Positions 43,283 through 55,515 of a stretch of DNA of 64,000 nucleotides are shown here, piece after piece. The notes beneath the pieces are model-generated. The model was not told where the DNA came from and searched no databases. It saw only the letters and a program-made list of their open reading frames with translations. Position numbers and translations under genes: made by a program. Positions within the stretch are counted from its first letter, which is position 1; each line of letters starts with the position of its first letter. This DNA comes from Sanguibacter sp. HDW7 (GTDB taxonomy: Bacteria; Actinomycetota; Actinomycetes; Actinomycetales; Cellulomonadaceae): NCBI RefSeq assembly GCF_011300875.1, contig NZ_CP049862.1:1612001-1676000 (forward strand), written 5' to 3'.

Positions 43283-43329
43283 GTCGTCCTCCAAAGGGCT
43301 GTTGTGCAGCGGGTGTGTCCAGACGGGTC

Positions 43330-43356
43330 AACGCCATGACGTCCGCGGACGTTCCC
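43330..43356 (-). promoter_or_regulatory. SigR-like (disulphide-stress) promoter of rbpA
   Basis: On the - strand GGGAAC, then 18 nt, then GTT, close to the SigR/SigH consensus GGAAT-N18-GTT, about 48 nt before the start codon. rbpA is SigR-controlled in Streptomyces. The rest of the 43283-43692 gap carries no gene. Confidence 0.5.
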
Positions 43357-43692
43357 GATGGCCGTGAAGGTCCCGTGAAACGCGTGCGAGATGTCGGGGT
43401 GCTGACGTCGCCGGTGTCGCTCCGGCTCGTCGGGCGGGGCTGGGACGCCGCGCGGGGCGGCGGTGCTAAGGGAGGGTCCGCCCGAGGGCGGTCCCGGCCA
43501 GGCGGGTGCACGGGACGTTTCGTCGTGTCTCACGAATTGTGCCGTGGAAAACCGCGCCGGACCAGAGGAGACTCTATCTCGGATCGTTCCAGGACGGGGC
43601 GAGGCCCGCAGGTGACGATGCTCACCAGAGGGTGCCCTCGGACCTCGGACGACGTGTCAGGATGTTCCGACGGTCTCGACGAGGGGAAGACG

Positions 43693-46053
43693 ATGGAACC
43701 GAGCCAGCACGCGGCGGACGCGCACGACCTCATCCGGGTGAGGGGAGCGCGGGAGAACAACCTCAAGGACGTCTCCGTCGACATCCCCAAGCGTCGCCTC
43801 ACCGTGTTCACCGGCGTCTCGGGCTCGGGGAAGAGCTCGCTCGTCTTCGACACGGTCGCGGCGGAGTCGCAGCGCATGATCAACGAGACCTACTCGGCTT
43901 TCCTCCAGGGCTTCATGCCCACGCTTGCGCGGCCCGAGGTCGACCACCTCGAGGGCCTGACGACCGCGATCATCGTCGACCAGGAACGACTCGGCGCGAA
44001 CCCGCGCTCGACGGTCGGCACCGTGACCGACGTCAACGCGCTGCTCCGCATCCTCTTCTCCCGGCTCGGCGTGCCGCACGTCGGCGGTCCGAACGCCTAC
44101 TCGTTCAACGTCCCGACGGTGCACGCGAGCGGCGCGATGACCGTCGACAAGCCCAACGCGAAGGCGGTGCGGACGACGTTCACGCAGACGGGCGGCATGT
44201 GCCCGCGCTGCGAGGGCCGCGGCCGGGTCAACGACATCGACCTCGACGAGATCGTCGACCCCGAGCTCTCGCTGCTCGGCGGGGCGATCAAGGTCCCTGG
44301 GTACACAGCTGACGGCTGGTACGTGAAGATCTACACCGAGTCGGGCATGCTCGACGGCGACAAGCCGATCAAGGACTACACCGAGCGCGAACGCCACGAC
44401 CTCCTCTACAAGGAGCCCGTGAAGATCAAGGTCGGCGGGACGAACTTCACCTACGAAGGACTCATCCCCAAGATCAGCAAGTCGCTGCTCTCCAAGGACC
44501 CCGAGGCGATGCAGCCCCACGTGCGGGCGTTCGTCGACCGTGCCGTGACGTTCCAGACGTGCCCGGACTGTGCGGGGACGCGCCTCACGGAGGCCGCGCG
44601 CGGCTCGAAGGTCGCGGGACGTTCCATCGCGGACGTCTGCGCCATGCAGATCACCGACGTCCTCGCGTGGGCGCAGGCGATCGACGACCCGGGCGTCGCG
44701 CCGCTCGTCACGGGCCTGCGCGAGGTGCTGGGCCACTTCGTCGAGATCGGCCTCGGCTACCTCTCGCTCGACCGCTCCTCGGGGACGCTCTCGGGCGGGG
44801 AGGCGCAGCGCACCAAGCTCGTCCGCCACCTCGGCTCGGCGCTCACGGACGTCACGTACGTGTTCGACGAGCCGTCGGTGGGTCTGCACCCGCACGACGT
44901 GCAGCGGATGAACGCGCTGCTCGAACAGCTCCGCGACAAGGGCAACACCGTGCTCGTCGTCGAGCACAAGCCCGAGACGATCGCGATCGCCGACCACGTC
45001 GTCGACCTCGGGCCCGGTGCGGGCACCGCCGGCGGCACGATCACCTTCGAGGGGACGGTCGCCGAGCTGCGTGCGTCGGACACACGGACGGGCCAGCACC
45101 TCGCGTACCGCGCGTCCGTCAAGGACGAGGTCCGCACGCCCACGGGCGCGCTCGAGATCCGCGGAGCGGCGACGCACAACCTCCAGGACGTCGACGTCGA
45201 CGTGCCGCTCGGCGTCCTCACCGTCGTCACGGGCGTCGCGGGCTCGGGCAAGAGCTCGCTCGTCCACGGCTCGGTGTCGAAGCGCGACGGCGTCGTCGTC
45301 GTCGACCAGGGCGCCATCAAGGGCTCGCGGCGCTCGAACCCCGCGACGTACACGGGTCTCCTCGAGCCCGTGCGCAAGGCCTTCGCCAAGGCGAACGACG
45401 TCAAGCCCGCGCTCTTCTCCGCGAACTCCGAGGGTGCGTGCCCCGCGTGCAACGGTGCCGGTGTCATCTACACCGACCTCGGCATGATGGCTGGCGTCTC
45501 GACGACGTGCATGGAGTGCGAGGGCAAGCGGTTCCAGGCCGACGTCCTCGACTACCGGCTCGGCGGGCTCAACATCGCCGAGGTGCTCGCGCTCCCCGCC
45601 TCCGAGGCGGCCGCGTACTTCGGTGCGAAGGACTCGCGCGTGCCCGCGGCTCGCACGATCGCCGAGCGACTCGTCGATGTCGGCCTCGGCTACGTGACGC
45701 TCGGGCAGCCGCTCACGACGCTCTCCGGCGGGGAGCGGCAGCGGCTCAAGCTCGCGACGCACCTGGGGGAGACCGGCGGGATTATCGTGCTCGACGAGCC
45801 GACGAGCGGCCTGCACCTCGCCGACGTCGCCCAGCTCCTCGCGCTGCTCGACCGGCTCGTCGACTCGGGCCGGACCGTCATCGTCGTCGAGCACCACCAG
45901 GCCGTCATGGCGCACGCCGACCACCTCATCGACCTCGGCCCCGGCGCCGGGCACGACGGCGGCCGCATCGTCTTCGAGGGGACGCCCGCCGAGCTCGTCG
46001 CGCAGCGCACGACCCTCACGGGCGAGCACCTTGCGAGGTACGTGGGCGCGTAG
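43693..46053 (+). CDS. UvrA-like ABC ATPase (short UvrA2-type)
   Basis: 786 aa, shorter than UvrA (about 950). Two ABC modules with Walker [17 protein letters not shown] and [13 protein letters not shown], signatures [11 protein letters not shown] and [11 protein letters not shown], zinc knuckles CPRCEGRG and CPACNGAG. UvrB-binding region is reduced. Such proteins are often linked to drug tolerance (e.g. daunorubicin DrrC-like) rather than to core excision repair. Start ATG 43693 with GAGGGGAAG upstream. Confidence 0.9.
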
Positions 46054-46103: not shown

Positions 46104-48308
46104 TCAGCGGCCGTGCAGCACGACGAGCCGTGACGTCGCGCGGGTCATCGCGACGTAGCGGTCGACGGCACCTGTGACGCCGCTGCCGAGCGCGTCGTCG
46201 TGGAGGACGACGAGGTCGAACTCGAGCCCTTTCGCCTCGACGGCTGACAGCGACCGCACGTGCGGGCCGTCAGGGACGGAGGGGTCACCGATGACGGCCG
46301 CCAGGCCGCCCGGTGACTCCTCGAGCCACTCGCGAAGAATCTCGTCGAGCGCCGTGCGCGGTGCGTGCAGGACCGGCACACCCGAGCGGCGGACAGCCGT
46401 CGGGACGTCCGCGTCGGGCAGGACGGCGCGGATGACGGGCGCGGCCTCCTCGAGGACCTCGGCAGGCGTGCGGTAGCCGACCGTGAGGGTCTGCACCCGG
46501 ACGTTGGGCAGGCCCGCACGTCCGAGACGCTCGGCCCACGTGCCCTCGAACCCGTCGCGCGCCTGGGCACGATCGCCGACGACCGTGACCGACCGTGACG
46601 GGCACCGCCGCAGCACCATGAGCCATGCAGCGTCCGAGAGGTCTTGGGCCTCGTCGACGACGACGTGCGCGAACGGCCCGTCGAGCGAGCCCGAGTCGAC
46701 CTCGTCGTCTCTGTCGAGCAGCGTGTCCGCGAGATCGGGGTGGACGAGCTGCGCCATGAGGCCCTCGCCGCCGTCGTCGGACGCGCGGAGCTCGGCGGCG
46801 ACCTCGGCACGAACCCGGCGCTCCTCCTCACGCTCGGCATCCGAGCGCGAGGCGCGGGCAGCCTCGCCGACGAGGGCGCGGGCCACGTCGAGCAGCGGGA
46901 GGTCCGCGAGCGTCCACGCGGCGCTCGCGTCCCGCCGCAGGGCGGCTCGCTCGTCGGCCGTGAGCCACGGTGCGCAGTAGCGGAGGTAGGCGGGGACGGC
47001 CCAGAGGTCCGCGACGACCTCGGGCGGGTCGAGGAGCGGCCACACGCGACGCACCTGCCGGCGGAACGCCGGGTCGTGCGCGATCGCTGCGGCGAGGTTG
47101 TCGGAGGACGCGGGCGCGTGCGGCTCCTGGTGGCGAGCCGCGACGAGCGCCAGCTCGCGCACTAGGTCGTCGACGGCGAGGTTGTGGGGGAGTCCGGGCT
47201 CGAGGGCGTCGACGGCGTCGGCCCAGTCGTCGGCCGTGAGCGTGAACGCTCCGATCGACGTCTCGACGTCGATGCCGTCGGCGGGAGCCTCCTCGGAGAA
47301 GCGCACGGCGGCCTCGACCGCGCGGACCATGGCACCCGAACCCTTGAGCCGCGCGACGACAGGATCGGCCTCGGGCATCGCGGTTGCGCCCTCAGGGACG
47401 AGGTCCCGCAACGTGCAGGTCGCGACGCCCTCGTCACCCAGGCCGGGCAGGACGTCCGCGACGTAGCCGAGGTACCGCTCCGACGGACCGAGGACGAGCA
47501 CCCCGCCGCGGCCGCCGCCGACACGCGGGTCGGCGTGCAGCAGGTAGGACGCGCGGTGCAGCGCGACGACGGTCTTGCCGGTGCCCGGACCGCCGTCGAC
47601 GACGAGTGCACCGCGCGCGTCCGCGCGGATCGCCGCGTCCTGGTCGGACTGGATCGTCGCAAGGACGTCCCGCATGCGGTCTGTGCGTTCACCCGCGAGC
47701 GAGGCGACGAACTGCGACTCGTCGTCGGGCGCGAGACCGTCGGTCGGTGCTGCAGGGTCGAGAATCTCGTCCCAGAAGCCGCTGAGCCGGCCCGCGGTCC
47801 ACCGGAAGCGGCGACGGCTCGCCACGCCGAGAGGTTCCGCGCGCGTCGCGGCGAAGAACGGCGCGGCGGCCGGCGTGCGCCAGTCGACGAGCAGGCGCGT
47901 CCCGTCCTCGTCCGCGAGACCCGTACGCCCGACGTAGACGGGTGCGCCGCCGTCCGACGGGACGAAACGCCCGAGGCAGAGGTCGACGCGCAGCAGCGCA
48001 AGCTGCGTCGTGCGGCTCGCGAGACGCCGCGCGGCCTGGTCACGCTCGACGGCAGCGCGCCCGGCGCGCGCCTGGGTCGTCCGGGCGTCGGCGAGGCGAG
48101 CCTCGTGCGTCGCGAGCATCGTGTCGAGGGCGTGCGCGATGGACGCGAGGTGGCGGGCGTCGGATCCGATGAGCGCTTCCGTCGCGCGCGCACCCAGCCG
48201 CGCGTCGTCGAGGACGTCGTCGAGGTGTGTGTCGAGGCCGGACGTCGTGGTGAAGTCAGAGGTCTTGGGGGAGTCGGAGGTGTGCGACGTGCGGGGCGTA
48301 GTGGGCAT
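46104..48308 (-). CDS. helR: RNA polymerase recycling helicase-like ATPase HelR/HelD
   Basis: 734 aa UvrD-like. An N-terminal coiled arm (~residues 30-110) inserts into RNA polymerase in relatives. Walker A DGGPGTGKTVVALHRA, Walker B VVDEAQDLSDAAWL, TVGYRTPAEVLEEA, and a final VEAKGLEFDLVVLHD with VAMTRATSRLVVL. HelR of Streptomyces displaces rifamycin-bound or stalled polymerase and is induced through a rifamycin-associated element, and such an element lies upstream here. Start ATG 48308 preceded by GGAG. Confidence 0.87.
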   Translation of the reverse strand: MPTTPRTSHTSDSPKTSDFTTTSGLDTHLDDVLDDARLGARATEALIGSDARHLASIAHALDTMLATHEARLADARTTQARAGRAAVERDQAARRLASRTTQLALLRVDLCLGRFVPSDGGAPVYVGRTGLADEDGTRLLVDWRTPAAAPFFAATRAEPLGVASRRRFRWTAGRLSGFWDEILDPAAPTDGLAPDDESQFVASLAGERTDRMRDVLATIQSDQDAAIRADARGALVVDGGPGTGKTVVALHRASYLLHADPRVGGGRGGVLVLGPSERYLGYVADVLPGLGDEGVATCTLRDLVPEGATAMPEADPVVARLKGSGAMVRAVEAAVRFSEEAPADGIDVETSIGAFTLTADDWADAVDALEPGLPHNLAVDDLVRELALVAARHQEPHAPASSDNLAAAIAHDPAFRRQVRRVWPLLDPPEVVADLWAVPAYLRYCAPWLTADERAALRRDASAAWTLADLPLLDVARALVGEAARASRSDAEREEERRVRAEVAAELRASDDGGEGLMAQLVHPDLADTLLDRDDEVDSGSLDGPFAHVVVDEAQDLSDAAWLMVLRRCPSRSVTVVGDRAQARDGFEGTWAERLGRAGLPNVRVQTLTVGYRTPAEVLEEAAPVIRAVLPDADVPTAVRRSGVPVLHAPRTALDEILREWLEESPGGLAAVIGDPSVPDGPHVRSLSAVEAKGLEFDLVVLHDDALGSGVTGAVDRYVAMTRATSRLVVLHGR

Positions 48309-48390
48309 GGGGAGGCTCCGTCCGAGGTCGCGCGGGGCCGGACGTCCCGTCCTCCGCGTGGCCTGAGCGAGTGATTCTGCGCCCTGCCGG

Positions 48391-48409
48391 GGGCCTTGCG
48401 GCAAGCCCC
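48391..48409. promoter_or_regulatory. Rifamycin-associated-element-like palindrome
   Basis: GGGCCTTGCGGCAAGCCCC: inverted repeat CTTGC-G-GCAAG with G/C flanks, strongly like the RAE in front of rifamycin-inducible genes as I recall it. On the helR strand it overlaps a -35-like TTGCCG, 19 nt before a -10-like CAGAAT. Confidence 0.65.
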
Positions 48410-48444
48410 GGGTCGTGGCATAACGTAGAGAGTGAGGGGAGCGG

Positions 48445-48621
48445 ATGGCCCCCGACCTCAATTCATCCCATCTTTTTCGACTCGCCGCGACGGGCTGTAT
48501 CAGTGGTGCCATCGGGTCCGAGGGCGGATCGGATGCGGAAAGTCGGGCCGCCGGGGCTAGCGGCTCGAGCGCGTGGCTGCGTGCGCAAGGTGGCGTGCGC
48601 ACGAACCGTCGGAGCATCTGA
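48445..48621 (+). CDS. Possible small protein, 58 aa, divergent from helR
   Basis: ATG 48445 after GGGGAGCGG. Encodes a Ser/Gly-rich 58-aa peptide with no family. A + strand promoter-like pair (TTGCGG, 17 nt, CATAAC) runs out of the RAE towards it. Codon use is atypical (TCA, CTT, TTT), so it may not be real. The remaining 48622-48797 has no gene. Confidence 0.25.
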   Translation: MAPDLNSSHLFRLAATGCISGAIGSEGGSDAESRAAGASGSSAWLRAQGGVRTNRRSI

Positions 48622-48797: not shown

Positions 48798-48825
48798 TTC
48801 GCCGATAAGGTACAGGTTGTAGGGC
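48798..48825 (+). other. attL: left phage/host junction at dif
   Basis: XerC arm TTCGCCGATAA and central GGTACA are followed by a degenerate right arm (GGTTGTAGGGC) in place of the XerD arm. Shares the 15-mer CGCCGATAAGGTACA with attR. Read as host XerC half joined to phage half. Confidence 0.75.
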
Positions 48826-48892
48826 GTCGGAGACGCGTGTAGCGTAGACATCAACGAACCTCGCTCGTGGTTGTGACGGGCGGGCTTCCAGT

Positions 48893-48928
48893 CGCCCCCG
48901 GTGTGCTGCGTCAACAGCCCCGGGGGCG
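48893..48928. other. Two-tier hairpin downstream of ssb (terminator or packaging signal)
   Basis: Outer 9-bp stem CGCCCCCGG / CCGGGGGCG; its apex holds a smaller stem GCTG/CAGC closing a loop that reads TTGACG on the - strand. Placed in the noncoding gap between ssb and attL, like the packaging hairpin of Ff phages, but it may also end transcription. Confidence 0.55.
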
Positions 48929-48961
48929 CGCCCTTTGATAGAGCCGGAAACCCTGGCTATG

Positions 48962-49417
48962 TCAGAAGGGCGCGGAGCCCGTGTCGGGCGTCGGCCCGAG
49001 GGAGTCATACGCCGAGGCCGGAGCACCCGACGCCACGAGCGCGGGGTCCTCCCGCCGCGTCGGACGACGCAGCGACCCGGAAACCCGGCGCAGCGAGACG
49101 GCAACCTCACGAGCGCGGAGCTCGATGCGGGAGCGCTTGTCCCCGGTCGTCTTGTCCTGCCACTCCGACTGGATCGTCTCGCCCACGACCATCACGCGGT
49201 CACCCTTGCGCAGGGTCTCCACAGCGTTCTTCGCCATGTCCTCGCCCCAGGCGGTGACCGGCCAGAAGATCGTAGGGTGCTCGACGTACTCGCCCGCAGC
49301 GTTGCGGTAGCCGGAGTTCTCCGCCACGGTGAACGACAGCAGCGTGTGACCGGACGGGGTGACCCGGAGTTCCGGGTCAGACGTGAGGTTGCCCATCACG
49401 TGAATGTTGGTAGGCAT
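48962..49417 (-). CDS. ssb: Phage single-stranded DNA-binding protein (SSB, OB fold)
   Basis: 151 aa from ATG 49417 (AGAGGG spacing favours it over ATG 49420). OB fold: NIHVMGNLTSDPELR, GHTLLSFTVAENSGY, FWPVTAWGEDMAKN, LRKGDRVMVVGET. It lacks the acidic SSB tip of the host protein. In the phage it would coat the replicated single strand, the job of gene V protein in Ff. A TTGACG-loop hairpin lies upstream, as for rep. Confidence 0.85.
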   Translation of the reverse strand: MPTNIHVMGNLTSDPELRVTPSGHTLLSFTVAENSGYRNAAGEYVEHPTIFWPVTAWGEDMAKNAVETLRKGDRVMVVGETIQSEWQDKTTGDKRSRIELRAREVAVSLRRVSGSLRRPTRREDPALVASGAPASAYDSLGPTPDTGSAPF

Positions 49418-49439
49418 CATGCCCTCTTCTCATGTTGTG

Positions 49440-49453
49440 GCCGCGTCAACGGC
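49440..49453 (-). promoter_or_regulatory. TTGACG-loop hairpin in the ssb leader
   Basis: - strand: stem GCCG/CGGC closing loop TTGACG, then CACAAC and the ssb ribosome-binding site. Same loop and 3' flank as the rep leader, with a compensated stem pair. Confidence 0.55.
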
Positions 49454-49463
49454 GTTGGGCACA

Positions 49464-49769
49464 ATGATGCACATGAACCGCTACCACGTCAACACACAAC
49501 ACGCACGTGCGCGGAGCACTCACCTCACCGGCTCCGCGATGGTCGAGCTCACAGACTGGCTCAGCGAGCCGATGAACCTACGCATGCCGCCGCTCGACGC
49601 CTACCGCGCCGCCCACGACCACTACGCCCGTGCCGCCGTGCTCGCGCTGGGCAACAACGACCTTCGCGGAGCGCTCCGAGCCTCCGAGCAGTCACTAGAG
49701 GCCCTACGGCTCGCGGAGCGCGAGGCCGAGCGCGAGGCCCGTAGGGCTCGGCTCGGGACCGTTGGGTAA
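49464..49769 (+). CDS. Only + strand phage gene, hypothetical, 101 aa
   Basis: ATG 49464 (also 49467 and 49473 in frame). Polar helical protein with VELTDWLSEP, DAYRAAHDHYARAAVLALG and a highly charged end (AEREAEREARRARLG). Points away from ssb; a 7-bp GC stem follows its stop. The lone opposite orientation is often where a repressor or immunity gene sits, but no helix-turn-helix is evident. Confidence 0.5.
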   Translation: MMHMNRYHVNTQHARARSTHLTGSAMVELTDWLSEPMNLRMPPLDAYRAAHDHYARAAVLALGNNDLRGALRASEQSLEALRLAEREAEREARRARLGTVG

Positions 49770-49789
49770 CGCTCCGTACTGAGTCAAGA

Positions 49790-49806
49790 GGCCCGCTCCG
49801 CGGGCC
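49790..49806 (+). terminator. Short hairpin after the + strand phage gene
   Basis: GGCCCGC pairs with GCGGGCC around TCC, 20 nt past the stop at 49769; no T-tract. Confidence 0.45.
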
Positions 49807-50122
49807 GCGGTGGCCGGGTCGAGCGGACCCCTCACCTCCGCGCAGCGTCGAGCCGTGCGGGCGGCTCGCTCCGCTTGCAGCCGCTCCGCGCGGCACGACG
49901 TCGCGCGGGAGGGGCGCAGGTGGACGCGCACGAGCTCCGAGCAACCCCGGAGAACGCCGAAGGCCCCGCACCAGCGCAGGTGCGGGGCCGACGAGCGCTG
50001 AAAGGCCGGCAAGAAGGACGACGGAACCGCATAGCCGGCCCCCGTACGCGAGACAAGGGCGTCCCGACAATCCGCAGCATCTTGCGTCCCGCCGAGGTGC
50101 TTTGCTCGTGCCCGACTCGAGG
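49807..50122. other. Phage intergenic region with hairpins, candidate origin
   Basis: About 315 nt without a convincing gene. It holds a perfect 11-bp hairpin at 49962-49989 (GGCCCCGCACC / GGTGCGGGGCC, loop AGCGCA) and GGCCGGC / GCCGGCC arms at 50004-50040. A hairpin-dense gap next to rep genes is where inoviruses keep replication origins and packaging signals. No nick site is recognised. Confidence 0.45.
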
Positions 50123-50311
50123 TCACGAGGACGTCAGTACCTGCGCAACGAACAGCCCGAGGGGGAGTACGACGAGCAGGACGAAGATCGCAAGGTTGCC
50201 GCGCTTGTACCGCTTGACGAGCCGCCGCAGCCGCGCGTTCTCATCCTCGAGCTCGAAGACACGTTGAGCGGTCGCAGGGTCCGGGGGAGTACCGAAAGGA
50301 ACGTAGCTCAT
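50123..50311 (-). CDS. Small phage protein: coiled coil plus membrane helix, 62 aa
   Basis: ATG 50311 overlaps the previous stop (ATGA). A leucine-spaced, charged helix (VFELEDENARLRRLVKRY) precedes one C-terminal TM (LAIFVLLVVLPLGLFVAQVL). No family is recognised. Confidence 0.65.
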   Translation of the reverse strand: MSYVPFGTPPDPATAQRVFELEDENARLRRLVKRYKRGNLAIFVLLVVLPLGLFVAQVLTSS

Positions 50312-50571
50312 GCCCCTGCATCGGCCAGACGCTGACCGACCTTGAGGCCCGCAACGTGCCGCGCCCACCCGTCCACAGCAGCCGGTGTCGCGCCGCACGA
50401 GCAGCGCACCCGGTCCCGATAGACACTCGCCTCCGGGAACCACTCGAACGTCATACGCTCGACCTCGACGTGCCCGACCGGCTCGACGACGAAGAGTGTT
50501 CCCTGCCCCTCGTAAATGAACATTCCACGCACCACCAATCTTCCAGAAGTCTTTATGGGTAGACTTGACAT
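50308..50571 (-). CDS. Small phage protein with CxC, 87 aa
   Basis: Mixed strands (YEGQGTLFVVEPVGHVEVER) then RCSCGATPAAVDGWARHVAGL. ATG 50571 lies 19 nt after rep; the internal ATG for MFIYEGQG with GGTGG upstream is a good alternative. Function unknown. Confidence 0.55.
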   Translation of the reverse strand: MSSLPIKTSGRLVVRGMFIYEGQGTLFVVEPVGHVEVERMTFEWFPEASVYRDRVRCSCGATPAAVDGWARHVAGLKVGQRLADAGA

Positions 50572-50589
50572 AGGGCGGTCAAGCGTGCA

Positions 50590-51606
50590 TCAGGCGACGA
50601 GCCATAACGATTCCGTAACGCAACCTGCGATCGGCACGTGCGGAGGCAGGTCCGGGTGATCGGGGACCACGAGCCGCGCCCAACCAGCCGACGCCGGGAC
50701 GTCGGCCCACGACGGCAGCGCATCGAGCACCGCGACGTGGTGAGCCTGTGCAGCGCGGACGTCGCGCATCGAGCGACCCCAGCTGCGCGAGGCGACCCAC
50801 GTCCGGAAGCCCGGACGCTTCTGGAACACCGCGACGTCCTGCATCTCGCCAACCGTGGGCCACGTCGTGCTCCGTCGTCGCCGCGTCACCGTGGAAGGCC
50901 ACACGACCCCGGAGCGGTCGTCGGCCGACTTCGCTACGTACTTCGCCACGTAGCCCGCGTGGCCCGGTTCGAGGCGTTGCACGTCCACCGAGTGCCCGAA
51001 ACCGTGCTTGATCGCCAGCCGTCGCACGTCGGAGACCCGCACCCGGAGCGGTCGCCCGTCGTCGCGCCGGAGCATCACGTGGAAGTGCAGCGCGCCGCGC
51101 TGTTGGGCCTCCGTACCCCGGAAGTAGGCCAGGTGCGAGATCTCGCGCTTGTACGTCTTGGTGTCGAGCGTCCCGGAGTACTTGTCCAGCACGTCACGCT
51201 CCGCGACGACGTACTCATGAGCGCCGATCGAACGCCCGAGGTCCCGCAGGAAACGGTTCCAGCGAGCGACCGCCGTCGCGTTCCACGACATGAGCTCGAC
51301 GCCACCCTCAGGCGTGCACGGGCACGGAGCTCCGTTGCGCTGGAAGTGCTGGGAGTCGCCCGGAGCCGTCAGCGTCAGAAACAAGCCCCGGACACCCGTG
51401 ACCATGCCGGACCCGGCGACCCTGCCGACCCGCGCACGGTACGCCGCAGCGCACGCCACGCACTTGCTAGCCCGCGAGGTCTGACACCTCGCGCCGACAC
51501 TCTCGCCGCACTCGCGGCAGGTGAGCCGGACGGGCGCCGAGCACCCGGAGACAGTGGGACCGTCCCAGGTGCCCGACGCCGCCCAGCGATGAGCACATGC
51601 GCTCAC
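50590..51606 (-). CDS. Phage HUH rolling-circle replication initiator
   Basis: 338 aa from GTG 51606 with AAAGGGG 5 nt upstream. N-terminal Cys clusters (LTCRECGESVGARC ... KCVACAAAYR), HUH motif in GALHFHVMLRRD, and motif 3 GYVAKYVAKS with the nicking tyrosine(s). Resembles RepSA-type initiators of actinobacterial plasmids. It would nick the phage plus-strand origin. A TTGACG-loop hairpin sits in its leader. Confidence 0.85.
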   Translation of the reverse strand: MSACAHRWAASGTWDGPTVSGCSAPVRLTCRECGESVGARCQTSRASKCVACAAAYRARVGRVAGSGMVTGVRGLFLTLTAPGDSQHFQRNGAPCPCTPEGGVELMSWNATAVARWNRFLRDLGRSIGAHEYVVAERDVLDKYSGTLDTKTYKREISHLAYFRGTEAQQRGALHFHVMLRRDDGRPLRVRVSDVRRLAIKHGFGHSVDVQRLEPGHAGYVAKYVAKSADDRSGVVWPSTVTRRRRSTTWPTVGEMQDVAVFQKRPGFRTWVASRSWGRSMRDVRAAQAHHVAVLDALPSWADVPASAGWARLVVPDHPDLPPHVPIAGCVTESLWLVA

Positions 51607-51625
51607 CGCTACCCCTTTCGTTGTG

Positions 51626-51641
51626 ACCCGCGTCAACGGGT
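51626..51641 (-). promoter_or_regulatory. TTGACG-loop hairpin in the rep leader
   Basis: - strand: stem ACCCG/CGGGT closing loop TTGACG, then CACAAC and the AAAGGGG ribosome-binding site of rep. Counterpart of the ssb leader element. Confidence 0.55.
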
Positions 51642-51667
51642 GTGGAGGTGGGGGAGTCTTGGCCTCG

Positions 51668-52096
51668 CTACGTAGCCTCGATGACCTCGCCCTCTTCGAC
51701 CAGTGCCCGAAGGTCCTCCGCGTCCCCATCGACGTCGGAATCCTGCTCAAGGAGCGCGCGCGGACCCTGAATCCACTCCGCGCCGTCGAGGCCCGCAGCC
51801 TCACGAGCTGCGACCGCCCGAGCACCCTCAGCCACCACGATGTTCACCTGATTGGTGGCCGTCGCCCCGGCCATAGCCGCAGCCGTCGCACGAGCCTCAG
51901 CACGCGCATACGCCGCCGCGAACGCGGACGCCTTGCCCGAGTGCCGCCCGTGCCACCACACCGCCGCCAGCGACGCAGCAAACGCCAGCCCGAGCACCCC
52001 AGCGACCGGCTCGTTACCGGGGCCGAAGTCGGCGTGCTGAAACCCTGCAAACGCCCACGACGCGCAGATGATCGCGATAAACAGCCAGTGCATCAC
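51668..52096 (-). CDS. Phage membrane protein, 142 aa
   Basis: Two N-terminal TM helices (WLFIAIICASWAFAGF and VAGVLGLAFAASLAAVWWHG), then a long Ala-rich helix and an acidic tail. GTG 52096 overlaps the Zot stop (GTGA). Translation coupled to Zot suggests it may provide the membrane part of the assembly machine. Confidence 0.7.
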   Translation of the reverse strand: MMHWLFIAIICASWAFAGFQHADFGPGNEPVAGVLGLAFAASLAAVWWHGRHSGKASAFAAAYARAEARATAAAMAGATATNQVNIVVAEGARAVAAREAAGLDGAEWIQGPRALLEQDSDVDGDAEDLRALVEEGEVIEAT

Positions 52097-52728
52097 GCAC
52101 CCCCCACCGCGACGCCACCAGCGACCTCGGCACGCTTGGCCGCGTCCCGCTCACGACGAGCGCGCTCCGTCTTGCTCGTCTCCGCGTACGTGTCCTTCTC
52201 CGCGTTGACATGCGCCGCCGTCGTCAGCCGCTCGAACGTGTTGTACGCGTTCGCGACCTCACGGGAGAAGATGCGCCGACGTGTCGTCATGAGCTTCTTA
52301 TCGTTGCGGAAGAACTCCGGCTCGTACGACTTCGCGGAGAACACCACCGGGTGCCCGTCCCACTCGAACCACGCCGTGCACAGCCACATCCACGAGGACA
52401 CGTCACGGATGATCCGATCCACCCGGCCTTCATGCTGCGCACACCACAGCAGATCCCACCCGTTCTTGCGTGTCTGCGAGAGCATCGCGAGCCACGACGG
52501 CGGCAGCTTGAGCGACATGCGCGCCGGGAACCACAGGTGCGCCTCGTCAATGACGATCACGCCCGGAGGCAGGTCGAGCAGTTGGTCCGGCGAGAACGTG
52601 TAGCAGTTCTCAAAGTTGATCGGGTAGTTGGCAAAGATCGTCCGCCCACGCTTCGCGAGCTCGATAGCCCGCGCCGTCAGCGTGTAGGACTTCCCCGAGC
52701 CGGGACGGCCCACGTAGCCCTCAATCAT
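52093..52728 (-). CDS. Zot/pI-like phage morphogenesis ATPase
   Basis: 211 aa from ATG 52728. Walker A YVGRPGSGKSYTL, Walker B VIVIDEAHLWFP, then TRKNGWDLLWCAQHEGRVD, as in the Zot/gene I family that drives extrusion of filamentous phage. The usual TM after the ATPase is absent; the C-terminus is a charged helix. Membrane contact may come from the neighbouring TM proteins. Confidence 0.9.
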   Translation of the reverse strand: MIEGYVGRPGSGKSYTLTARAIELAKRGRTIFANYPINFENCYTFSPDQLLDLPPGVIVIDEAHLWFPARMSLKLPPSWLAMLSQTRKNGWDLLWCAQHEGRVDRIIRDVSSWMWLCTAWFEWDGHPVVFSAKSYEPEFFRNDKKLMTTRRRIFSREVANAYNTFERLTTAAHVNAEKDTYAETSKTERARRERDAAKRAEVAGGVAVGGA

Positions 52729-52942
52729 CAAGCACCACCTTGTGGATGAGCGCGGCACCGAATACCACCCAGGGGAAAGACGCCAGGGCAAGGACAATCC
52801 CCACCCAGGTCGGCCACTGAATGACGCCCTGCAAGACGAGCAGACTGACAGCAACAGGAGTGATCACGACACAGAAAGCGAGGGCAATTCCGGTAATCCA
52901 GAACGTGACCTCTAGAGCCTCGACAAAGTCTCTCTTAGTCAC
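52721..52942 (-). CDS. Phage two-TM protein, 73 aa
   Basis: GTG 52942 overlaps the stop of the 27-aa gene (GTGA). TMs: VTFWITGIALAFCVVITPVA and VGIVLALASFPWVVFGAALI. Overlaps the start of Zot by 8 nt. Confidence 0.65.
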   Translation of the reverse strand: MTKRDFVEALEVTFWITGIALAFCVVITPVAVSLLVLQGVIQWPTWVGIVLALASFPWVVFGAALIHKVVLDD

Positions 52943-53099
52943 GGACGCCACCGCCCCAGGAACGGCCCGCAGACGAACAGGAGCATCGTCCAGGCCGCGA
53001 GCCACGACGCAACGTGTTCCATGAGTCTCTTCCCTTCATCACGTAGAGCCAGAAGTCGATACGTCCGCGGACCATCCAGTCCGCCAGCCGCGCCCGCAT
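52935..53099 (-). CDS. Alternative 54-aa phage reading frame
   Basis: ATG 53099 overlaps the previous stop (TGATG). The first ~25 residues (RARLADWMVRGRIDFWLYVM) look real; the rest (RRGSRPGRCSCSSAG) looks like a shadow of the 27-aa gene. Either a short gene overlapped by the next or a false frame. Confidence 0.3.
   Translation of the reverse strand: MRARLADWMVRGRIDFWLYVMKGRDSWNTLRRGSRPGRCSCSSAGRSWGGGVRD
52939..53022 (-). CDS. Phage mini membrane protein, 27 aa
   Basis: ATG 53022 after GAAGGGAAG gives one short helix (SWLAAWTMLLFVCGPFLG) with a basic end, size like pVII/pIX minor coat proteins of Ff. Overlapping stop/start with the next gene supports it. Too short to prove by composition alone. 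Confidence 0.5.
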   Translation of the reverse strand: MEHVASWLAAWTMLLFVCGPFLGRWRP

Positions 53100-53359
53100 C
53101 ACGTCGCCTTCAGCGGCAGCACCGAGTACACGAACACGACGCCGCGCCACGCCAGCAGCGCGACCTTCAGCCCGAGCACGAGCGCGAGACAGATACCCAG
53201 CACCCGCACCGGGAAGTAGCCGTTGCCAGCCGACGCCATGGACCCCACCGACGCCGACGACTGCGAAAACGCCTCCGTCGGCGGAGTCCACGAGGGGATC
53301 AGGTCGAGCACGAGCGTGAAGCTCGAGGCCATGAGAGCGATCAGCGCGTCCAGGATCAT
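53099..53359 (-). CDS. Phage two-TM protein, 86 aa (minor coat candidate)
   Basis: ATG 53359 shares bases with the stop of the adsorption-like gene (TGATG). Hydrophobic start (ILDALIALMASSFTLVLDLI), Ser-rich loop, then VLGICLALVLGLKVALLAW. Position right after the adsorption gene matches pVI of Ff phages; assignment by synteny. Confidence 0.65.
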   Translation of the reverse strand: MILDALIALMASSFTLVLDLIPSWTPPTEAFSQSSASVGSMASAGNGYFPVRVLGICLALVLGLKVALLAWRGVVFVYSVLPLKAT

Positions 53360-55515
53360 CAGTCGCCCGTTCCCGCGTCGCGACCGCCGATAGCAGCCGT
53401 GAGCATGTGCCAGACGCCAAACACCGTTGCGCCCACGATCCCGGCCACCGCGACGCCGTACAGAGCGGTCAGCGGAGCCGACTGTGGGGGAGTGCACGGA
53501 ATCGTGAGCCTGCCCTGCTTCCACGGGTCGAACTCCGCAAGCGGCTGCGAGCAGCCCCCATCCCAACCGGTCTTGAAGCCGTTGATCGTCGCCGTCGCGG
53601 GAGCAACGAGCGTGAACGGTGGCTTGGTGTCCAACGTCGTCTTAACCTTGCTCACCTGCGTAGCGATGTTGGCCTTGTCCGGCACAAACACCTCCTTGAG
53701 CGCGCACGACGTGCCCTTGTACACCCACCAGCCCGAGAACAGGCCGCCGGCGGTGAACTTCGGCGGGCAGTTCGGGTCGAAGTCCTCAACGCCTGGACTT
53801 CCTCCCGGCCCCGGCGCGCTTCCGTCGTCCGGCTGCTCCTCGAGCTCCGGGTCTGGAACGTCACCCGTCACCGGGTCCCCGTACGGCACACCAAGGTCAC
53901 GGTTGAACGTCGGCCCGTACAGGTAGCACTCCGTAAGCGGCACCTTCTTCGACCCGTAATAGCACTGGTAGTTCGTCTCGCGGTCGGGGTCCTTGGTCCA
54001 ATCCACGCACAGCTCAGGGGACAGGAAGCACGACACCTCCGTGCCGGTCTTCTTCACCTTGAGGTCGAGCAGGCACGTCCCATCGGCGCACTCGGGGTAG
54101 TTCTGGAAGAAGTCCTCAGTCTCCTGTGGCAGAGACCATTCGTAGACGACCTCCGTACCCACGCCCTCGGTAACCTGGGACACCGTGAGCGTCTGCACCT
54201 GACCGAACGCGCACGACGCCTGGGGAGCGCCGGGAATCCGATCGTCAGCTTCCCGATACCAGACCGACTGGGCCTGACCACCAGGCCCCTGCGTGCACGT
54301 CCACTCAGTCAGCCAGTGACGCCGCGCATTGCCCTCGACACCCGGAGTCCAGTCCTTGTGCCCCTCCGGGACCCAGATAATCGGATCCATCGTCCACGCC
54401 GTCGAGGTATTCCGCCAGACCCAATGGTCGAACTTGTAGGTGCCGCTTCCGGTGACGTCTCGCTCGACTCGACCCTGATGCACCCCGTTGCACTGGAGCG
54501 AGCCGCTGAACGATGTGTAGCCTCCGAAGTCCACTTCCTGCCCGTCACTCCGCGTACCCTTCGCGCCGTTCTGAGTTGACACAGTGCCGTAATTCGGAGA
54601 GCACTCGAACCCCCCAATGCTCCACAGGAAATCCATCTCGACAGCGCCCTGCGCCTGGAACTCCGGCACGACGGGCGGCAGGGGATCGACCCGCACCGTA
54701 AAGGACTCAGGACGGTACGTCCCCGGATCATTCGCGACGACAGTCCGCGTGTTCCCGTTCGGGAAACCAGCCGGGACGCCCTCCCCAAGGTCCTGGTTAG
54801 GCACGTAGCCCTCAACGCCAGCCAGACCGCAATCTGAGTCCGCGAAAGCCGTAGCAACGTCACACATGAAGCTACCGGTCGTCGGGAGGCCAACCAGACC
54901 CGCGATACCCGTCCCGACTGCAACCCCAATTTCAGCAGTGCCAACGACCGCCGCACCAACGGCGGCGGCATTCCCCACCTTCATGAACACGTTCTTGGCA
55001 GTCCCGCCAGGGCTCGTGACCTTCGACAGGCCCCGCGAATCCGTCACCGTGACCACGCCGGATTTCGCAACCGAAGCAGGAGCGAGAGCAGACGTCGCCC
55101 CAGGCTTCTTCGAGTAAGAGTCCCGGTACCAGTCGTACATATCAGCGTCGGAGATATCGAAAGCGGAGACGCCCCGAGACTTCATCATCTCGGTCATGCC
55201 CTCGATATAGACGCCCTTGTCCGCAGCTCCGCGCACATTCATCTGCGAAAGCAGCTTCTTCACCTGCGCCTGCGTCTGCTGCTCCGCAAGGTCAACAGCA
55301 CCCAGGCGTGTCGCGTAGTAGTACTCGCGCGACACCGCCGACGACGGCAGCGCCGACTTAATCGGCAACCACGACGGCGGCTTAAGCGCCGACGCGACCG
55401 GCGCAGCCGAGGCCGGGGGAGCAGCAGCGCCCACCACCACGAACGACGCGACGATGAACACAGCACCTACACCGGCCAACCGCCGACCGACACCACGCAT
55501 CAGACGTAGCATCAT
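53359..55515 (-). CDS. Phage adsorption/pIII-like secreted protein
   Basis: 718 aa. Signal peptide (VGAVFIVASFVVVG, cleavage near PASA), a large Cys-rich exported domain with Trp/Tyr-rich strands, a hydrophobic stretch around 180-215, a Pro/Gly/Asp linker (DPELEEQPDDGSAPGPGGSPG), and a C-terminal TM (LYGVAVAGIVGATVFGVWHML). Signal, long ectodomain and terminal anchor next to coat and pVI-like genes is the layout of the receptor-binding pIII. No sequence family is recognised. Confidence 0.75.
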   Translation of the reverse strand: MMLRLMRGVGRRLAGVGAVFIVASFVVVGAAAPPASAAPVASALKPPSWLPIKSALPSSAVSREYYYATRLGAVDLAEQQTQAQVKKLLSQMNVRGAADKGVYIEGMTEMMKSRGVSAFDISDADMYDWYRDSYSKKPGATSALAPASVAKSGVVTVTDSRGLSKVTSPGGTAKNVFMKVGNAAAVGAAVVGTAEIGVAVGTGIAGLVGLPTTGSFMCDVATAFADSDCGLAGVEGYVPNQDLGEGVPAGFPNGNTRTVVANDPGTYRPESFTVRVDPLPPVVPEFQAQGAVEMDFLWSIGGFECSPNYGTVSTQNGAKGTRSDGQEVDFGGYTSFSGSLQCNGVHQGRVERDVTGSGTYKFDHWVWRNTSTAWTMDPIIWVPEGHKDWTPGVEGNARRHWLTEWTCTQGPGGQAQSVWYREADDRIPGAPQASCAFGQVQTLTVSQVTEGVGTEVVYEWSLPQETEDFFQNYPECADGTCLLDLKVKKTGTEVSCFLSPELCVDWTKDPDRETNYQCYYGSKKVPLTECYLYGPTFNRDLGVPYGDPVTGDVPDPELEEQPDDGSAPGPGGSPGVEDFDPNCPPKFTAGGLFSGWWVYKGTSCALKEVFVPDKANIATQVSKVKTTLDTKPPFTLVAPATATINGFKTGWDGGCSQPLAEFDPWKQGRLTIPCTPPQSAPLTALYGVAVAGIVGATVFGVWHMLTAAIGGRDAGTGD

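Follow-up and report, generated by a model that had tools for sequence, protein, structure and literature searches.

What a rifamycin-associated element (RAE) would do in front of a helR gene, and by what anatomy it would do it, is the question that this locus raises. The element was reportedly described in 2014, and how rifamycin is sensed is said to have been an open matter since.

In actinobacteria the RAE is a 19-bp palindrome that precedes helR/helD and genes for rifamycin inactivation (PMC10719064, PMC8655204). In mycobacteria it overlaps the -35 of a downstream sense promoter (promoter 2), and in M. abscessus loss of half the element abolishes induction (PMC10719064); its mechanism and any regulator are stated to be unknown (PMC10719064, PMC12802891). 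The locus analyzed here lies in a stretch of 64,000 nucleotides from Sanguibacter sp. HDW7, called the window below. By its sequence it is a genuine further copy of the known RAE-helR arrangement, and what is added is the reading of the element as a two-sided promoter. This conserved two-sided anatomy yields single-base predictions that would make the RAE mechanism testable. It also supplies a longer signature, more specific than the 19-bp palindrome, by which genes that respond to rifamycin, and the direction in which they lie, can be found.

The helR gene and the palindrome before it

The gene occupies 46104–48308 on the minus strand and encodes a 734-residue protein that an earlier note on this DNA had taken for a HelR-type RNA polymerase recycling ATPase. 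The curated NCBIfam model motor_HelR (NF041254) bears this out, its cut-off of 750 bits being exceeded by a score of 943.9, with far lower scores for other HelD models. The closest solved relative is HelD of Mycobacterium smegmatis (6yxu, E 4e-92), and the nucleotide-binding and class II motifs GPGTGKT, DEAQD and DWRTP are present. The region where a primary-channel loop with an acidic tip would be expected aligns as DDGGEG, versus DDDGEG or DDSE in relatives; most sampled HelR relatives have only about half of their residues in common with the window protein. Additional, weaker HelD-type matches occur elsewhere in the same genome. The distribution of the gene within the genus is patchy: a HelR above the cut-off occurs in the window's species and in one congener, and in none of four further species that were sampled.

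Directly upstream of this rifamycin-resistance gene, 82 nt from its start at 48308, positions 48391–48409 read GGGCCTTGCGGCAAGCCCC on the plus strand and, toward helR on the minus strand, GGGGCTTGCCGCAAGGCCC. The latter has zero mismatches to GGGGCTTGCNGCAAGGCCC, which we took to be the RAE consensus and which conservation across relatives then supported. When the whole 3.35 Mb genome was searched, this was the sole site with at most two mismatches; the remaining matches all had three, and the reversed-pattern control gave similar three-mismatch noise. A loose palindrome pattern inside the window gave 11 matches versus 10.3 expected, which is not beyond chance; significance was therefore drawn from the exact match and from conservation. 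Sites with at most one mismatch are present in 103 of 396 genomes of the order, the reversed control giving few. A chance palindrome was ruled out by uniqueness in the genome together with conservation. Judged by sequence, uniqueness, position, and conservation before helR and three other kinds of resistance gene, 48391–48409 is an RAE, as had been claimed.

Conservation at helR and at other resistance genes

Among the genomes of 59 relatives, 18 contain a HelR match above the cut-off, and an RAE with at most two mismatches lies just upstream in 14 of these 18 loci; by the same threshold no RAE was found upstream of 11 HelD paralogue loci. With a class-wide sample added and more degenerate palindromes allowed, the set comprised 49 helR loci chosen by protein, and an RAE with at most three mismatches is present within 400 nt at 38 of them. 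Absence of the palindrome from orthologous promoters, which the earlier note had named as one outcome that would speak against its reading, did not occur. In some Streptomyces (L110, L120, L123) helR lies ~1.3 kb past the RAE, apparently behind another RAE-led gene, and this arrangement may account for part of the helR loci that have no RAE nearby.

RAE sites from the genome collection also precede genes that we take to encode Rox-type monooxygenases, Rph-type phosphotransferases and Rgt-type glycosyltransferases, names given by inspection of the protein sequences and by similarity within the set. The flanks of the palindrome are alike across HelR, Rox, Rph and Rgt sites, although the genes are unrelated.

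Promoter-like signals on both sides of the palindrome

Alignment of 77 helR sites on the palindrome shows that strong conservation extends outside its 19 bp. On the gene side the palindrome's internal TTGCNG is separated by exactly 19 nt from a hexamer that is usually CAGAAT or CACAAT, and on the outward side, on the other strand, TAnnnT lies exactly 19 nt from the mirrored TTGCNG. In the window the gene-facing pair consists of the -35-like hexamer TTGCCG (48399–48404, within the RAE) and the -10-like hexamer CAGAAT, whose first base is not T (48374–48379), both on the minus strand and separated by the conserved 19-nt spacer. The outward, antisense pair consists of TTGCGG (48396–48401), which lies within the RAE by the symmetry of the palindrome and overlaps the gene-facing -35, and TAACGT (48421–48426), both on the plus strand with a 19-nt spacer. 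The overlap of the palindrome with a -35, also claimed earlier, is upheld by the gene-facing pair, whose -10-like hexamer is nearly invariant in position among relatives, and it fits the published overlap. The outward-facing half of the element is what the earlier note missed; the open-access papers describe only the gene-facing side of the RAE, and literature beyond these may already describe the outward half.

When spacers from 10 to 29 nt were scanned, the -10 signals of both strands peaked at 19 and were near zero off the peak, save for secondary matches of the loosest pattern, nAnnnT, at 21, 22 and 25. Counts were made on 171 gene-oriented sites (92 HelR, 50 Rox, 19 Rgt and 10 Rph) that were not selected on their flanks; loci L189–L218 were dropped from this set because they had been fetched with a pattern containing the outward -10, and were kept in the direction and hairpin counts. 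At the 19-nt spacing, the gene-facing nAnnnT is present in 169 of the 171 sites, with T as first base in only 5, and the outward TAnnnT in 165. Common descent keeps these sites from being independent trials, but they are drawn from many families and from four kinds of gene that are unrelated to one another. The 38 helR-anchored sites give the same picture (gene-facing nAnnnT 38/38, T first 0/38; outward TAnnnT 37/38). Three Rox-type sites of one family (L013, L014 and L015, at 1501), in which both -10s begin with T, are exceptions to the rule of a weak sense -10. The asymmetry of the core was rejected as sole guide to direction, since several cores are reversed while their flanking -10s point to the gene. 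From these patterns the RAE looks like the common -35 of two mutually exclusive promoters.

That the palindrome of the window has been inherited but is no longer functional, or is a chance match, is very improbable. In its favor, the hairpin of the window's outward leader is weak and loose matches occur nearby by chance; however, an exact core and both -10s are present here, at the single site in the genome and directly before helR, and the congener G102, with ~89% identity over the locus, keeps both -10s and identical spacing with one palindrome mismatch.

A pattern made of the two -10s and CTTGCNGCAAG, with the outer arms of the palindrome not required, matches in 32 of 149 genomes, while its reversed control matches in none; when the left spacer is made one base longer, matches fall to 0 of 149 genomes and none occurs in the window's own genome, where the helR site is otherwise the sole match with zero mismatches. 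Both the GGG and the CCC arm are also present in 32 of the 39 distinct matches. Their retention in sites found by a search that did not demand them indicates that the arms are constrained separately, and this speaks for a protein that reads the palindrome as well. This is the point at which a classical operator has to be weighed: the 19-bp palindrome would be the binding site of a rifamycin-responsive regulator, whose action there would be to activate the gene-facing promoter or to relieve its repression. We regard such an operator as a possibility to be entertained tentatively; it draws support from the conservation of arms that the -35 boxes do not need and from the published preference for an unknown factor (PMC10719064, PMC12802891). 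On the same tentative footing, the outward -10-like hexamer would then be an outer contact of that protein or a by-product, and no working promoter.

Some sites stand apart from the four gene types. Mycobacterial-type RAEs with both -10s lie before genes that matched none of HelR, Rox, Rph or Rgt at L121, L226, L227, L230, L231, L233 and L234, and likewise at L236, L237, L239, L243, L244 and L248; these genes are possibly arr or new members of the regulon. In Mesorhizobium a Rox-like gene is preceded by an RAE-like core (L122 at 3416) that has neither -10 and is possibly a chance or a transferred one. The core was matched three times in viral contigs, in no case with both -10s beside it.

The predicted outward leader

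A working outward -10 would put the start of transcription at about -24 from the palindrome (about 48432–48434 in the window). The predicted outward leader (48432–48480, plus strand, its start placed by comparison with relatives) has a purine-rich start, a weak hairpin and a T-run ~40 nt downstream. Among relatives the predicted start region is strongly GG on the outward strand, and T almost never occurs in the first eight outward nucleotides. Start-site data for M. smegmatis revealed an extra sense promoter whose start, ~20 bp upstream of the RAE, is close to the predicted outward start position, and no antisense promoter is described there (PMC10719064), which weighs against the two-promoter reading.

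Perfect stems of at least 6 occur in 84 of 189 upstream regions (fewer than half of the relatives) versus 13% in shuffled sequence, and their ends cluster at -24/-23. Over its initial 30 nt the predicted outward RNA has a mean fold z of about -2.2, and at offsets of 10 nt or more further out the value is about 0. A hairpin followed by TTTT in the outward direction was found at 43 of the 189 sites; in the sense direction, TTTT lies between hairpin and palindrome in 4 of 189 only. Pairing of the 5' arm is better with the 3' region of the same site than with that of other sites (permutation p about 2e-4), and the preference extends to 74 arms that differ from the common one. Judged by sequence, the outward side looks in many relatives like a promoter with a terminator at the first nucleotide, and its RNA would then stop at ~30 nt. 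We also weighed a leaderless open reading frame on the outward side and set it aside, since a terminator is the better fit to the start-locked hairpin and the T-run. No known RNA family was found by Rfam at five hairpin-bearing RAE loci. In the window itself the fold of the outward leader is not significant (z +1.0), and its T-run ~40 nt in is also present in the congener.

These features bear on the classical operator, for protein contact does not predict the promoter-like polarity of the outward side (TAnnnT, spacing of 19, GG start, start-locked hairpin and, sometimes, a T-run). In addition, the center of the palindrome lies near -33 from both predicted starts, a position that we regard as unusual for an activator; the gene-facing start is predicted at about 48367. 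Activation of the MerR type, which the 19-bp spacer might bring to mind, was rejected: the palindrome is centered on the -35 and not between -35 and -10.

A proposed mechanism for induction

We consider it rather probable that a functional RAE makes helR inducible by rifamycin through a bidirectional pair of mutually exclusive promoters together with a probable bound factor. Two promoters would stand back to back, with their -35s shared and overlapping in the palindrome, and RNA polymerase could not occupy both simultaneously. The helR-facing promoter would be kept weak by its 19-nt spacer and by a -10 without the first T, and the outward promoter would have the better -10 (TAnnnT). Without rifamycin, polymerase would sit mainly on the outward promoter, its transcript in many relatives forming a hairpin and ending at ~30 nt; rifamycin, or polymerase stalled by it, would shift occupancy to the gene-facing promoter, more HelR would be made, and stalled polymerase would be freed. 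Simple competition would not by itself be sufficient for induction, because an outward polymerase arrested by rifamycin would still block the gene-facing promoter; this weighs against the scheme, as do the weak fold in the window and the occurrence of perfect stems in fewer than half of the relatives. The GGG/CCC arms are conserved beyond what a -35 needs, which makes it probable that they are bound by an unlinked dimeric protein that would help to set the direction. Firing of the promoters, their mutual exclusion, the bound factor and a reversal of the balance by rifamycin are what we infer from sequence, and that the drug would tip this balance toward helR is taken from the published induction in relatives. 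Induction of helR by rifampicin in this organism is likewise a prediction, made from published work on Streptomyces venezuelae and Mycobacterium abscessus.

A scheme in which polymerase itself does the sensing, on the model of the helD alarm of Bacillus subtilis, where helD is induced from two convergent promoters (PMC12802891), would need no regulator: rifampicin would disable the busier outward promoter first and so release the gene-facing one. The two systems have in common the helD gene, a 19-bp antisense spacer and a weak sense promoter opposed to a better-looking antisense one, the promoters here being predicted; a further common feature is a short antisense RNA that terminates, which is predicted here for many relatives (PMC12802891). 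Their geometry differs, however. The B. subtilis system is without an RAE palindrome, and its promoters converge with separated starts, whereas those predicted here diverge with overlapping -35s, so the Bacillus collision model is not transferable unchanged; moreover, B. subtilis lost inducibility through a deletion that was predicted to produce steric overlap (PMC12802891). We hold sensing by polymerase with no regulator to be rather unlikely, and keep to the promoter pair assisted by a bound factor.

In its 19-bp palindrome, its place upstream of a resistance gene and its overlap with a sense -35, the element is like the published actinobacterial RAE, and with its class II HelD/HelR and upstream RAE the locus resembles helR of Streptomyces venezuelae (SVEN_6029) and of Mycobacterium abscessus (MAB_3189c). 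What the conserved unit has beyond the open-access descriptions is an outward -10 with its predicted start, frequently accompanied by a hairpin; this is a difference in description only. Whether nearly every RAE would be such a bidirectional switch, with polymerase occupancy as part of the rifamycin sensor, or a mere operator for an activator, is a question on which our judgment is evenly balanced. It is no less finely poised on the fuller form of the switch, which would include an outward promoter with the common -35 and, often, a terminator-like hairpin from the first nucleotide of the transcript.

Neighborhood of helR

An inovirus-like element (48811–55515) lies immediately upstream of helR; its SSB, rolling-circle Rep (RepSA/G2P type), Zot-type ATPase and one large protein of unknown kind are all encoded on the minus strand. 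The congener G102 ceases to be collinear at 48811, where its contig is nearly at an end. On the other side, at 43315–46053, a gene for a UvrA-like ABC ATPase is convergent with helR, its start probably near 43693, and a similar UvrA-like gene is found at the helR locus of Nocardioides alcanivorans (L101).
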